64,000 nt of DNA from Alphaproteobacteria bacterium (GTDB lineage: Bacteria; Pseudomonadota; Alphaproteobacteria; Micropepsales; Micropepsaceae): positions 1-64,000 of the forward strand of contig CANIHD010000001.1 of the NCBI GenBank assembly GCA_947467345.1, written 5' to 3'. The position numbers were made by a program, and so were the translations under genes. Shown one piece after another: positions 14,530 to 17,906 of this stretch. Each line of letters begins with the position of its first letter. The first letter of the stretch is position 1. The notes under the pieces are model-generated. The model searched no databases, was not told the DNA's origin, and saw only the letters and a list, made by a program, of their open reading frames with translations.

Positions 14530-15402
14530 TTAAAGGCGACTGCCAAATTCCTGAGCGAGAGTCCTGTTCGCAAATTGCTCGACCAATGTGGCGAACACAT
14601 CGGGATGTTCGAGATACATTAGGTGGGCCGTATCGCGCACGACAATCCGGTTTGCGCCTAGGATCAGGGCTTCGGCTGCGCCCGCCTGGGCATGATTGTC
14701 GGCGATGTCGTATTCGCCGATGAGGATGAGTGTTGGCGCCTTGATCGAAGGCAATAGCGGCTTCGCAACAGGCGCGGGACGGGCAGGATCTTCATGATTC
14801 AGGTCTTGAGGATTCGCAATCAGTAAGGCGACTGCTCGTTTCAGCGCCGCCTCATGTCCCGGCGCGAAGGCCCAGCTGTCGCGCAGGGCGCCCTCTAAAT
14901 CGCCTTGTTGTATGCGCCGCCCCATCGCGTCCACGCGATCTCTAAAATATTGCGATTGGGCCAAGTCCGAAATGGCAGGTCCGACGAGAACCATGCGTTC
15001 TACGGCTTCCGGATGTTGCAACGTGAAATCCACCGCGAGTCCACCGCCCGAGGAACTGCCGACCAGCACAAATTGATCGAGGCCTGCCGCGCGTATTACT
15101 GCTGTAACGTCATCTACCGGAGAATAGTGCGCGGTCGCGGCAGGTGAGCGCCCGAAACCGCGGCGGTCGAAGCGAACCACACGAAAATCCTTGCACAGGA
15201 TTGGCCATACGTCATCCCAGACGGCGGAATGCAGAACGCCGTCGTGGATCAACACGATGGCTTTAGGCCCAGAGCCCCAGGTCTGGTACCAGACCTGCCC
15301 ATTTTCGACGGCAATGAAGGTGCCGGACGTGGGTTGAGCTGCCACCGCCGCGACCAATGTCGGGAGCAGAGAAAGCACAAGAATGAAGACTGAGCGCACC
15401 AT
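14530..15402 (-). CDS. Secreted alpha/beta hydrolase fold protein
   Basis: A 290-residue exported hydrolase. The signal peptide ends VAAVAAQ. The oxyanion turn is LIHDG, the nucleophile elbow GSSSG (Ser117), the acid lies near GEYDIAD and the His near DTAHLMYLEHP. These give a complete catalytic triad. The pattern RFDRRGFGRS is typical of the epoxide hydrolase/haloperoxidase-like branch, so esterase, lipase or C-C hydrolase activity are all possible. It converges with the preceding hydrolase 16 bases away. Confidence 0.8.
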   Translation of the reverse strand: MVRSVFILVLSLLPTLVAAVAAQPTSGTFIAVENGQVWYQTWGSGPKAIVLIHDGVLHSAVWDDVWPILCKDFRVVRFDRRGFGRSPAATAHYSPVDDVTAVIRAAGLDQFVLVGSSSGGGLAVDFTLQHPEAVERMVLVGPAISDLAQSQYFRDRVDAMGRRIQQGDLEGALRDSWAFAPGHEAALKRAVALLIANPQDLNHEDPARPAPVAKPLLPSIKAPTLILIGEYDIADNHAQAGAAEALILGANRIVVRDTAHLMYLEHPDVFATLVEQFANRTLAQEFGSRL

Positions 15403-15489
15403 GCCAGGGAATCTCCGGAACGCACTGGCTACGCTACGCCATCATCCGGTGCCCGTAACCTAGGAAAACGGAACCGCATGGGCCGCCAC

Positions 15490-15543
15490 TTGACAAACAG
15501 TGCATTGTCTTATTGTATGAATATATTCATACAATAAGACAAT
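15490..15543 (+). promoter_or_regulatory. Promoter with a perfect 40-bp palindromic operator
   Basis: Positions 15504-15543 are a perfect 40-bp inverted repeat with half-site ATTGTCTTATTGTATGAATA and no spacer. A consensus -35 TTGACA lies at 15490-15495, with a possible -10 (TTGTAT, 15513-15518) 17 bases later inside the left arm. The palindrome ends three bases before the GntR start codon (15547). A dimeric regulator bound here would block the promoter, fitting autorepression. The RNA of this stretch would also fold into a long hairpin next to the start codon, and no Shine-Dalgarno sequence is visible. Confidence 0.8.
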
Positions 15544-15546
15544 CAA

Positions 15547-15921
15547 ATGCTGAAAGACCTTCGCCTCCAGGACAACGGAATTCCCATTTACGTGCAGCTG
15601 CGCGACCAGATTCTCGCGGCGGTTGGGCGCGGAACGCTGGCGCGCGGCGCGCAATTGCCCACCATGCGTCAAGTCGCGGTGGACTTAAGGATTGATCTCA
15701 ATACGGTACAGCGCGCTTACGCCGAGCTGGAACGTGAGGGTGTCCTGACCACGACGCGTGGGCGCGGCAGCTTTGTCGCCGACGTGCCACGCGCGCCGCG
15801 CAACAAGCGCAAAGATGCGCATGAATTGGCACTCCGGGTCGCAGCCCAAGCGCAAGCTCAAGGCATCGCGTTGGAAGATTTAACCGCCGCTCTGCTCCAC
15901 CTCAAAAGGGACGCGGCGTGA
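15547..15921 (+). CDS. GntR-family transcriptional regulator (YtrA type)
   Basis: A 124-residue DNA-binding protein. The winged helix-turn-helix is clear: IPIYVQLRDQI, GTLARGAQLPTMRQVAVDL, NTVQRAYAELEREGVLTTTRGRGSFVA. Only a short C-terminal helix pair follows. The lack of a large ligand domain marks the YtrA subfamily, which usually controls adjacent membrane-protein genes. The slipin gene starts 40 bases downstream, so it is the probable target together with the regulator itself, through the 40-bp palindrome in front. The ligand is unknown. Confidence 0.88.
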   Translation: MLKDLRLQDNGIPIYVQLRDQILAAVGRGTLARGAQLPTMRQVAVDLRIDLNTVQRAYAELEREGVLTTTRGRGSFVADVPRAPRNKRKDAHELALRVAAQAQAQGIALEDLTAALLHLKRDAA

Positions 15922-15961
15922 CGTACCATCACCCAAAGTAGTCAGACAGGAGACGCATTTG

Positions 15962-16831
15962 ATGAACCCCATTAGCATCGCGCTCATTCTGGTTTTTCTT
16001 GCCGCGGCAACGCTTTCATTCCTCATGCATTTACCGCCTGCCGTCGGCATTGTCCTGATCGCGGCCGGAATCTTAGCCGGCACGTCCCTGAAAATGGCGC
16101 AGCAATGGGAGAAGGCCGTCGTTCTGCGCGCCGGAAAACTTTCGGGCATCAAAGGGCCTGGGCTGTTCTTCATCGTGCCCGTCGTCGACACAATTACGTC
16201 TTGGATTGATCAACGCATCCGCACCACTGCGGTCAACGCCGAACAGGCGCTTACCAAGGACACTGTTCCCGTCAACGTCGATGCCATCGTGTTCTGGATG
16301 GTGCATGACGCCGAGCGCGCGGCGTTGGAGATCGCGGATTACGCCAGCGCTGTGCAGCGTGTTGCGCAAACAAGCTTGCGCGAAATGATCGGGTCTTCGC
16401 TGCTGTCGGAGCTTTTGTCCGAGCGTAAGTCCGCGGACGAAACGCTTAAGTCGGTTATCGGTGTCAAAACCGGAGAGTGGGGTGTTACCATCAATTCCGT
16501 GGAAATTCGCGACGTGGCAATTCCCGCGACATTGCAGGATGCGATGAGCCGCCAGGCTCAGGCGGAACGCGAAAAGCAGGCGCGCGTCACCTTGGGTTCG
16601 GCGGAAGAGGAAATCGCGCAGAAATTTTTCAACGCGGCGAAACTCTACGCCCACAACCCCGAGGCGCTTCAGCTGCGCGCCATGAACATGATCTACGAAA
16701 CCACGAAGGAACGCGGCGCCACCATACTCATGCCTTCCAGCATGGTAGACGCCATGAACCCTGGCGCGATTTCCTTCGCCTTGAACATGGCCCGGAACGA
16801 TGCGCCGAGACCGCTTCCGCCACTCTCGTGA
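15962..16831 (+). CDS. Slipin (SPFH/band 7 domain) membrane protein
   Basis: A 289-residue stomatin-like protein. Two hydrophobic stretches near the N-terminus form a hairpin anchor, followed by the band 7 domain (WEKAVVLRAGKLSGIKGPGLFFIVPVVD, QALTKDTVPVNVDAIVFW). The C-terminal helix is rich in Gln, Ala and Glu (SRQAQAEREKQARV), as expected of the oligomerising coiled coil. It probably organises membrane microdomains. No NfeD-type partner is adjacent; the GntR gene is its only neighbour in the operon. ATG 15962 has an AGGAGA site at 15949. Confidence 0.9.
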   Translation: MNPISIALILVFLAAATLSFLMHLPPAVGIVLIAAGILAGTSLKMAQQWEKAVVLRAGKLSGIKGPGLFFIVPVVDTITSWIDQRIRTTAVNAEQALTKDTVPVNVDAIVFWMVHDAERAALEIADYASAVQRVAQTSLREMIGSSLLSELLSERKSADETLKSVIGVKTGEWGVTINSVEIRDVAIPATLQDAMSRQAQAEREKQARVTLGSAEEEIAQKFFNAAKLYAHNPEALQLRAMNMIYETTKERGATILMPSSMVDAMNPGAISFALNMARNDAPRPLPPLS

Positions 16832-16900
16832 AGGCCTGCGCCTCGTCATCTAATCTCACCCGCCGCACACTTGCCGCACACCAGCCACGAACCTGCCATA

Positions 16901-16921
16901 GAGGCTTGTCAAAGAAGCCTC
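16901..16921 (+). promoter_or_regulatory. Hairpin just before the comM start
   Basis: GAGGCTT (16901-16907) and AAGCCTC (16915-16921) form a perfect 7-pair stem that ends one base before the comM ATG at 16923. It could hide the start codon region. Its importance is doubtful because the gene behind it is broken. Confidence 0.35.
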
Positions 16922-16922
16922 C

Positions 16923-17031
16923 ATGGCACTGGCTCGAATCTACAGCGTGGCGTTCGAAGGCATGGACCCGCGCGAGGTGGACGTGCAGGTGCATATCGCG
17001 CCCGGCTCTCCCGTGTTCTCGGTGGTCGGGA
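16923..17031 (+). pseudogene. comM: comM/yifB, N-terminal remnant
   Basis: The frame starts MALARIYSVAFEGM and runs through VDVQVHIAPGSPVFSVVG. This is the start of the Mg-chelatase-like AAA+ helicase ComM/YifB, which helps branch migration in natural transformation. Similarity stops at about residue 36; the expected next block (LPDxAVxESRERVR) is missing. The frame then reads through unrelated DNA to a stop at 17129. The Walker A and B regions are lost entirely, so the gene cannot make an active helicase. Confidence 0.82.
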
Positions 17032-17206
17032 CTTGGCGCGGAGCTATCTCATCCAGATCAATGTCCGGCGCGAAGATGCGGAGAGTCGCCTCGACGTTAT
17101 CCAGCGCGAGAACGGACTCGCGAACTTGACTCTGTAGATGTTCGATGAGTCCTGCCAGTTCGGCGCGCTTCTTTACGAGCGCTGTTACTACATGCGGATC
17201 GGCCAT
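17027..17206 (-). pseudogene. Truncated small hypothetical gene inserted in comM
   Basis: Starts MADPHVVTALVKKRAELAG and runs through NVEATLRIFAPDIDLDEIAP. This resembles the first half of a small protein common in Rhizobiales-like genomes, of unknown function. After about residue 60 the frame runs into the antisense of the comM remnant and ends at 16940, so the original C-terminus is missing. Upstream of its ATG (17206) is the short palindrome TTTGATTATCAAA. The fragment must have come from elsewhere, so the comM deletion was accompanied by an insertion. Confidence 0.6.
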
Positions 17207-17297
17207 GCGGGACTATTTGATTATCAAAGTGTCCCATATACCTTCCATTGGTCGGTAACGGTGGCGATACCAATTTAGGTGTGGTTGCTACCTAATA

Positions 17298-17906
17298 CCG
17301 GAATTCGCGCGGCCCGTTCTCGATTCGTTACGCCAGCCCGTCGAGACCGGCGCGGCCGTCATCGCGCGCGCCAACGCGCATGTGCGTTTCCCCGCACGCT
17401 TCCAATTGGTGGCAGCGATGAACCCGTGCCGCTGCGGACATCTCTCCGATCCCGCGCAAGCCTGCGGCCGCGCGCCGAAATGCGGCGCGGACTATCAAAC
17501 GCGAATCTCCGGGCCCCTGCTCGACCACATCGACATTCATGTCGATGTCGCTGCGGTTTCGGCGGCAGATCTCGCTCTGCCGCCGCCATCGGAAGATAGC
17601 GCAGTCGTCGCCGCGCGCGTCGCGCGCGCCCGCGACATTCAGCGCGCACGGTATGAAACGAGCACGGCGACGGTGCGCACCAATGCTGAAGCCGAAGGCG
17701 AGCTTCTGGACAGCGTCGCGAAACCCGATGCGGGCGGGCAGCAGTTGCTCACCGACGCCGCCGAGCGCATGAAGCTCACCGCGCGCGGCTATAGCCGCGT
17801 GCTTCGCGTGGCGCGCACCATTGCCGATCTTTCCGGCGCCGATGGCGTCGGCCGCGCCCATATCGCGGAGGCACTGAGCTTCCGGCGGCTGGTTCATGCG
17901 GGGTGA
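17298..17906 (+). pseudogene. comM: comM/yifB, C-terminal remnant
   Basis: From PEFARPVLDSLRQPVETG the frame follows ComM closely: ARANAHVRFPARFQLVAAMNPCRCG, then ISGPLLDHIDIHVDV and the C-terminal bundle ending ALSFRRLVHAG. It covers about the last 203 residues and lacks Walker A and B. No start codon or ribosome site belongs to it. Together with the 5' remnant it accounts for less than half of a normal ComM of about 500 residues. Its last 36 bases recur at 19228-19263. Confidence 0.85.
17871..17906 (+). repeat. Direct repeat of comM 3' end, copy 1
   Basis: Encodes ALSFRRLVHAG and the stop TGA. It matches 19228-19263 in protein sequence, with base changes at three third or first codon positions and in the stop codon. 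Confidence 0.75.

Follow-up and report, generated by a model that had tools for sequence, protein, structure and literature searches.

A perfect 40-bp palindrome before a gntR-slipin gene pair, a probable operator for a YtrA-type regulator

Introduction

A 40-bp palindrome without a single mismatch precedes a gene for a GntR regulator (gntR) and a slipin gene in the window (the whole stretch of DNA analysed, 64,000 nt from an alphaproteobacterial contig of the family Micropepsaceae). This raises the question of what so long a palindrome serves, and whether it belongs to the gene pair behind it. Two roles were proposed for it in the preliminary description: a DNA operator for a YtrA-type dimer, and an RNA hairpin next to the start codon. 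Bacterial slipins are widespread and, to our knowledge, little is known about what turns them on. The features discussed are summarized in Table 1, and the loci compared are identified by L numbers.

Results

A palindrome beyond chance expectation

The repeat search showed a gapless palindrome with two arms of 20 nt, 100% complementary and separated by a loop of 0 nt (15504-15523, ATTGTCTTATTGTATGAATA, and 15524-15543, TATTCATACAATAAGACAAT). Three bases lie between its end and the gntR ATG, and there is no Shine-Dalgarno-like purine run ahead of this ATG; the preliminary description was accurate on the perfection of the palindrome, its distance from the start and the missing Shine-Dalgarno sequence. 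No other gapless palindrome of the window reaches this length, the runner-up (10-bp arms, 15278-15297) being half as long. The 40 bp are poor in GC (20% vs. 60% for the window). The longest arms in 30 first-order Markov simulations of the window were 7-10 bp, and 20-bp arms are expected about 1e-7 times per 64 kb at the composition of the window (5e-6 times at 75% AT), so that chance is far exceeded. One half of the palindrome has no second copy in the rest of the 2.49-Mb genome, allowing up to 3 mismatches; a repeat or mobile-element origin was rejected because the half is unique and the inner core precedes gntR across families. The runner-up, a second perfect palindrome (CAGGTCTGGTACCAGACCTG), lies within the divergent hydrolase gene located 5' of gntR (14530-15402, minus strand).

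Table 1. Sequence features around the palindrome (positions in the window; empty cells, no strand assigned).
Feature	Position	Strand	Basis
TTGACA, candidate -35 hexamer	15490-15495	+	Sequence; also in L004 and L125/L042; TTGACG in L126
Perfect 40-bp palindrome without loop	15504-15543		Made up of the 24-bp core operator and two outer arms of 8 bp
Left outer arm ATTGTCTT (ATTGT, found again in the core half-site 8 bp away; possible secondary half-site)	15504-15511	+	Repeat search, comparison with L004
Core operator ATTGTATG-AATATATT-CATACAAT, predicted GntR-dimer site	15512-15535		Conserved before orthologous gntR-slipin pairs
TTGTAT, candidate -10, weak match, 17 bp from TTGACA, within the left half-site	15513-15518	+	Sequence, inferred
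TACAAT, alternative -10, part of the right half-site	15530-15535	+	Apparent -10 of 12 of the 14 loci in the family, as TACAAT or with one base changed
Right outer arm AAGACAAT	15536-15543	+	Comparison with the nearest relative
gntR, 124-aa YtrA-type GntR regulator	15547-15921	+	PF00392 8.9e-12; AlphaFold2 model; Foldseek
AGGAGA, Shine-Dalgarno-like, 8 nt 5' of the slipin ATG	15948-15953	+	Sequence
Slipin (stomatin-like SPFH/Band 7 protein), 289 aa	15962-16831	+	PF01145 7.8e-37; PDB stomatin chains, E 2e-40

The regulator and the slipin

The regulator showed a GntR winged-helix domain (PF00392, 44.9 bits vs. a cut-off of 27), and its AlphaFold2 model (pLDDT 84.8) consisted of a winged helix followed by two C-terminal helices (residues 87-104 and 109-123). 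The best Foldseek matches were short GntR regulators (4ham, 3neu, 3by6, 4r1h, 6sbs, 2ek5/2du9; moderate TM scores of about 0.6-0.7), including the Sulfolobus YtrA (6sbs) and a C. glutamicum protein (2ek5). Several characters of the YtrA subfamily were present: the GntR domain, a length of 124 aa with a two-helix C-terminal domain, YtrA-type proteins as the nearest folds, and a conserved putative operator of 24 bp, ATTGTATG-N8-CATACAAT, with GT/AC far from the centre. An operon with an ABC transporter, usual though not universal in the subfamily, was not found, the partner here being a slipin. No NCBIfam equivalog cut-off was reached by the regulator.

The slipin gene starts 40 bp behind gntR. 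Its product was assigned to the slipins (SPFH1) by a Band_7 domain close to stomatins (PF01145, 127 bits; best PDB matches, stomatin chains) and by N-terminal hydrophobicity, with hydrophobic segments near residues 4 and 28. No NfeD gene was seen among the 7 scanned neighbouring genes of the relatives or among the scanned neighbours in the window, a subset of all neighbours. The longest slipin frame overlapped the gntR stop by four bases in 11 of the 22 loci examined, a sign of a single operon. Some slipins are longer: in L034, L035, L036 and L043 the frame starts at the gntR stop and encodes additional N-terminal sequence, which in L035, L036 and L043 carries an added hydrophobic segment that the window slipin does not have.

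Distribution of the pair

Orthologues of gntR were found in 15 of the 96 genomes of the family at E<=1e-18, having first appeared among 40 of 96 matching at a looser 1e-8. A sample of 385 genomes from the class contained 13 carriers, three of them members of the family, and in a sample of the phylum, where 8 of 398 genomes matched at 1e-14, the orthologue is represented by L135 and L136. An order-level search for a nearer relative found none, its 96 genomes containing just the 15 carriers seen in the family. Scanning named genomes gave 80 loci, 30 of them with a slipin (L033-L061 and L097): alphaproteobacterial bins, many Gluconobacter and Brytella, the firmicute Lucifera butyrica and one planctomycete were included. 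These sets overlap (L033 and L004, for example, are one locus). A slipin was present on the same locus as gntR in 15/15 (L003-L017), 12/12 (L125-L136) and 30/30 cases (L033-L061, L097), and a tblastn search for slipin partners of more distant GntR matches found none (0/15 for L018-L032, 0/50 for L062-L112 without L097, and 0/5 for L137-L141).

The GntR of Lucifera butyrica matched 26 in a sample of 300 genomes from its class, and 11 loci (L154-L163 and L169) were retained by an open frame shorter than 180 aa and an identity of at least 48%. Nine of these 11 carried a slipin; the locus L169 ends at gntR, and L161, with the core site described below, lacks a slipin in the 1.5 kb that follow.

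With the slipin as query (E<=1e-55), 14 of 372 genomes of the class matched, 13 of which were gntR genomes, as were 14 of the 17 matching genomes among the 96 of the family. Four close but unpaired slipins (L200, L213, L214 and L215) had neither a gntR-like gene on the locus nor the core site (best 9/14) in 4/4 cases. A tree of 41 paired slipins (from the class, the class of Lucifera and the planctomycete) and 6 unpaired SPFH proteins showed the two groups on opposite sides of a branch with 99/99 support; the unpaired sample was small, some branches were long and the four close unpaired slipins were left out, so the paired slipins may not strictly be one clade. Taken from gene order and homology, the gntR-slipin pair appears to be a conserved, tightly coupled, cross-phylum operon. 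The pairing, which the preliminary description had called unfamiliar, proved to be real and conserved across relatives; it is also apparently undescribed, as a literature search found no paper treating slipin and GntR together or describing such an operon, and the papers mentioning both SPFH and GntR appear to be proteomic or transcriptomic surveys.

Conservation of a 24-bp core

The core (T/G)TGTATG-N8-CATACA(A/C) was found just 5' of the gntR start in each of the 14 loci of the family whose upstream DNA could be read (L003-L016, among them that of the window; L017 is cut). It occurs either as TTGTATG-N8-CATACAA or as the symmetric GTGTATG-N8-CATACAC, L004 and L007 each deviating by one base. 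It ends 7 nt before the gntR start in 12 of the 14 (taking an in-frame upstream ATG as the start in L010 and L016), and it precedes gntR despite differing upstream gene arrangements among genomes. Among the loci L125-L136, the core was present at 11 or more of 14 matching positions in 10 of 12 (10 in L128 and L135), several of them with a C...G variant, CTGTATG-N8-CATACAG. The inner TGT/ACA pairs were invariant in 26/26 upstreams, and the pair outside them was complementary in 22 of the 26 (T-A in 13, C-G in 6, G-C in 3) and broken in 4; cores were placed by best match, which somewhat inflates the symmetry, though second-best placements reached only 7-10/14 in those loci.

In a whole-genome pattern scan allowing up to one mismatch, 12 of the 96 family genomes matched (5 of 96 for the reversed control). 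Eleven of these 12 carry gntR and have one site each, immediately ahead of that gene and exact in 9, and the remaining one had its match elsewhere; the 4 of 15 gntR genomes that were missed corresponded to three G...C variants and one cut contig. At this stringency the core site accompanies the gntR regulator and nothing else in the 96 genomes. The genome of the window itself contains one core site, none more at 1-2 mismatches, and 12 at 3 mismatches (17 for the reversed control); a wider regulon was rejected on these grounds.

Farther away, the core is imperfect in Gluconobacter (11-12/14), where it overlaps the gntR ATG, and it was not found in the planctomycete locus L061 (Planctomycetota; best 8/14). 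A related core with the same spacing, TTGTA[CT]T-N8-AATACAA, was present at 13-14/14 before 5 of the 11 gntR genes retained as relatives of the Lucifera butyrica gene; the other 6 upstreams had none within 350 nt, their scores of 7-10/14 being taken as background. In the same class, palindromes of 34 bp (L165) and 40 bp (L168), both with 6-nt loops, precede GntR genes without a slipin.

The regulator wing varies with the operator in one clade: a motif RGVG (instead of RGRG) accompanies the GTGTATG / G...C operators in 3/3 family rows. These proteins form one clade and therefore represent one event, and L135, with a GTG left half yet RGRG, runs contrary to the pattern; coevolution of regulator and operator is thus suggestive, for one clade.

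Looking for the palindrome before orthologous pairs had been proposed as a check of its function: the inner 24 bp were indeed present, but the full 40 bp were absent from every relative examined. Compared with the nearest relative (L004), the right outer arm was identical at 8 of 9 bases (counting the preceding base) and the left at 5 of 9 (counting the next base), while a longer left flank shared 7 of 18. As judged from these comparisons, only the outer 8+8 bp seem unusual for a YtrA-type site, and they are not conserved.

Candidate promoters

A strict sigma-70 promoter scan of positions 15300-17000 gave no match, and the window promoter proposed here is a reading of the sequence without support from that scan. 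In 12 of the 14 family loci (L003 and L004 are the exceptions), promoters read by eye have a -10 supplied by the right half-site (TACAAT in 8, TACACT in 3, TACATT in 1) and a TTG at the -35 place, with a spacer of 17 bp (9 loci), 16 bp (2) or 18 bp (1). The gntR transcript in these 12 loci would be leaderless, starting at or next to the ATG; leaderless mRNAs occur in alphaproteobacteria, at 5% in Gluconobacter oxydans (PMC5756330). The layout differs in the window and L004, where TTGACA lies 17-18 bp before the TTGTAT of the left half-site and TACAAT has no -35 at 16-18 bp. The promoter of the window is thus ambiguous, the TTG-N16-18-TACAAT layout of the 12 relatives being absent there. Both promoter readings would place the start within or after the palindrome, so that the whole hairpin would not be transcribed.

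Discussion

The conservation of the core, its symmetric covariation and its co-occurrence with gntR, but not with a slipin alone, agree in pointing to the first role proposed for the palindrome, a DNA operator for a YtrA-type dimer. Very probably it is the operator of a self-repressing gntR-slipin operon. GntR would bind the core as a dimer, overlapping the promoter, and would thereby keep both gntR and the slipin gene behind it from being transcribed; repression by promoter blocking and autoregulation are suggested by the position of the site over the candidate promoter and by the YtrA precedent. A signal loosening the dimer would release both genes and, by analogy with YtrA-type regulators, might be a membrane-active or amphipathic compound, though both this signal and the task of the slipin are guesses.

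Two other uses of the site were considered. The palindrome lies in a divergent intergenic region, and could serve the hydrolase gene or another regulator; we regard this as very unlikely, as the site precedes gntR whatever the upstream gene arrangement, stands at a constant distance (7 nt) from the gntR start codon in 12 of the 14 loci of the family and is absent where a slipin occurs without gntR. The RNA hairpin beside the start codon, which would control gntR translation as a second function of the same element, finds some encouragement in a folding energy of about -21 kcal/mol for the whole palindrome as RNA and in the missing Shine-Dalgarno sequence of gntR. The promoters, as inferred from sequence, speak against it: those of 12 of the 14 family loci (TTG-N16-18-TACAAT/TACACT/TACATT) would give transcripts beginning beyond the palindrome, at the ATG or beside it; TTGACA-N17-TTGTAT in the window would place the start near the palindrome centre; in both cases the left arm would stay outside the RNA; in leaders predicted to begin at 15519 or 15525 the palindrome part is unpaired; and no read-through is expected from a divergent upstream gene. 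With the two arms not in one RNA, this part of the preliminary description was not upheld and a hairpin role seems most improbable.

The reason for the full 40 bp has to be sought in the outer 8+8 bp, probably a local addition consisting of extra half-sites, of one template-switch mutation, or of both, as the two readings are compatible. All 40 bp may be functional, the ATTGTctt/aagACAAT arms being secondary half-sites which recruit a second dimer or strengthen binding, as in YtrASa of Sulfolobus acidocaldarius. ATTGT is directly repeated 8 bp outside each core half-site, eight extra perfect pairs would arise by chance with a probability of only 2e-5 to 9e-5, and GntR-type sites commonly have flanking half-sites at a distance of 7-12 nt (PMC4494728); in YtrASa the outer parts of a 32-bp inverted repeat duplicate the half-sites and contribute to binding (PMC6746942). 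The outer arms, however, are not conserved in other family members, the right one being common only to the nearest relative, and we would call this reading possible without calling it likely. A by-product of replication is possible to the same degree: a template switch may have copied the right outer arm onto the left, so that an imperfect operator became perfect though no function required it. The flank shared with L004 on the right (8/9) and not on the left (7/18) is what a right-to-left switch would leave, and such quasipalindrome correction has been reported in E. coli (PMC7202029), but the ancestor cannot be reconstructed from one relative and selection for secondary half-sites would look alike.

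With either origin of its arms, the palindrome is best read as a YtrA-type operator of the ordinary kind whose extension is unusually perfect. It had been described as far longer than usual for a GntR operator, which is true against typical GntR sites but not against YtrA motifs, typically about 24 bp (PMC6746942) with reported flanking half-sites (PMC4494728). The regulator resembles the YtrA subfamily (Bacillus YtrA; 3neu, 4r1h, 2ek5) in size, in its two-helix C-terminal domain, in a long palindromic operator with distant GT/AC, and in a single-site operon containing the regulator gene; most members accompany ABC transporter genes (PMC4494728), whereas here the partner is a slipin, and exceptions paired with membrane proteins are in print (PMC6746942). 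YtrASa (6sbs) is likewise a small YtrA regulator, whose very small regulon includes the operon that it forms with a membrane-protein gene, and with a core plus extra direct-repeat half-sites giving a longer inverted repeat over the transcription start (predicted here); it differs in being archaeal, in its 14-bp core (24 bp here) and in a membrane protein of no predicted function (PMC6746942), the counterpart here being a slipin. PmtR of Staphylococcus (NF047563) was among the best NCBIfam relatives of the length of GntR, though its 69 bits are well below the 200-bit cut-off and by name it regulates an ABC exporter. The slipin is stomatin-like as in the SPFH1/slipin-NfeD operons (PMC2636767), but no NfeD was found beside it and the operon partner is a GntR regulator. 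This kind of operator is thus already known, while a lasting gntR-slipin partnership across distant bacteria seems undescribed.

Tentatively, the pair could be a dedicated two-gene membrane module, in which a slipin clade has kept its own repressor and operator from the Alphaproteobacteria to the class of Lucifera butyrica (possibly also in the Planctomycetota), and the scaffold is made only when a repressor sensing the membrane state or a compound lets go. Bacterial slipins would then have a transcriptional switch dedicated to them. The defined operator and its conserved repressor offer a handle, as whatever releases the repressor would tell the purpose of the slipin, and the presence of the pair in Gluconobacter strains that can be grown makes a test practical. 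The operators with their matching regulator variants also form a clean small data set on DNA reading by YtrA-type proteins.

Some observations concern the surroundings of the pair. A Pfam scan of 7 neighbouring genes revealed no common third partner beyond EF-G-like translation GTPase genes, which adjoin the pair in 3 loci (L035:4296-5369, L041:4175-5371 and L042:110-2125). A pesticin/phage-lysozyme-like gene lies directly 3' of the slipin gene in the nearest relative (L033:3959-4630, minus strand). In the window, a Mg-chelatase-like gene at 16923-17906, which we take to be of the ComM/YifB type, appears broken: the 68-aa frame at 16923, without a Pfam match, presumably resembles its N-terminus, and the C-terminal part (17382-17906) matches Mg_chelatase and Mg_chelatase_C.
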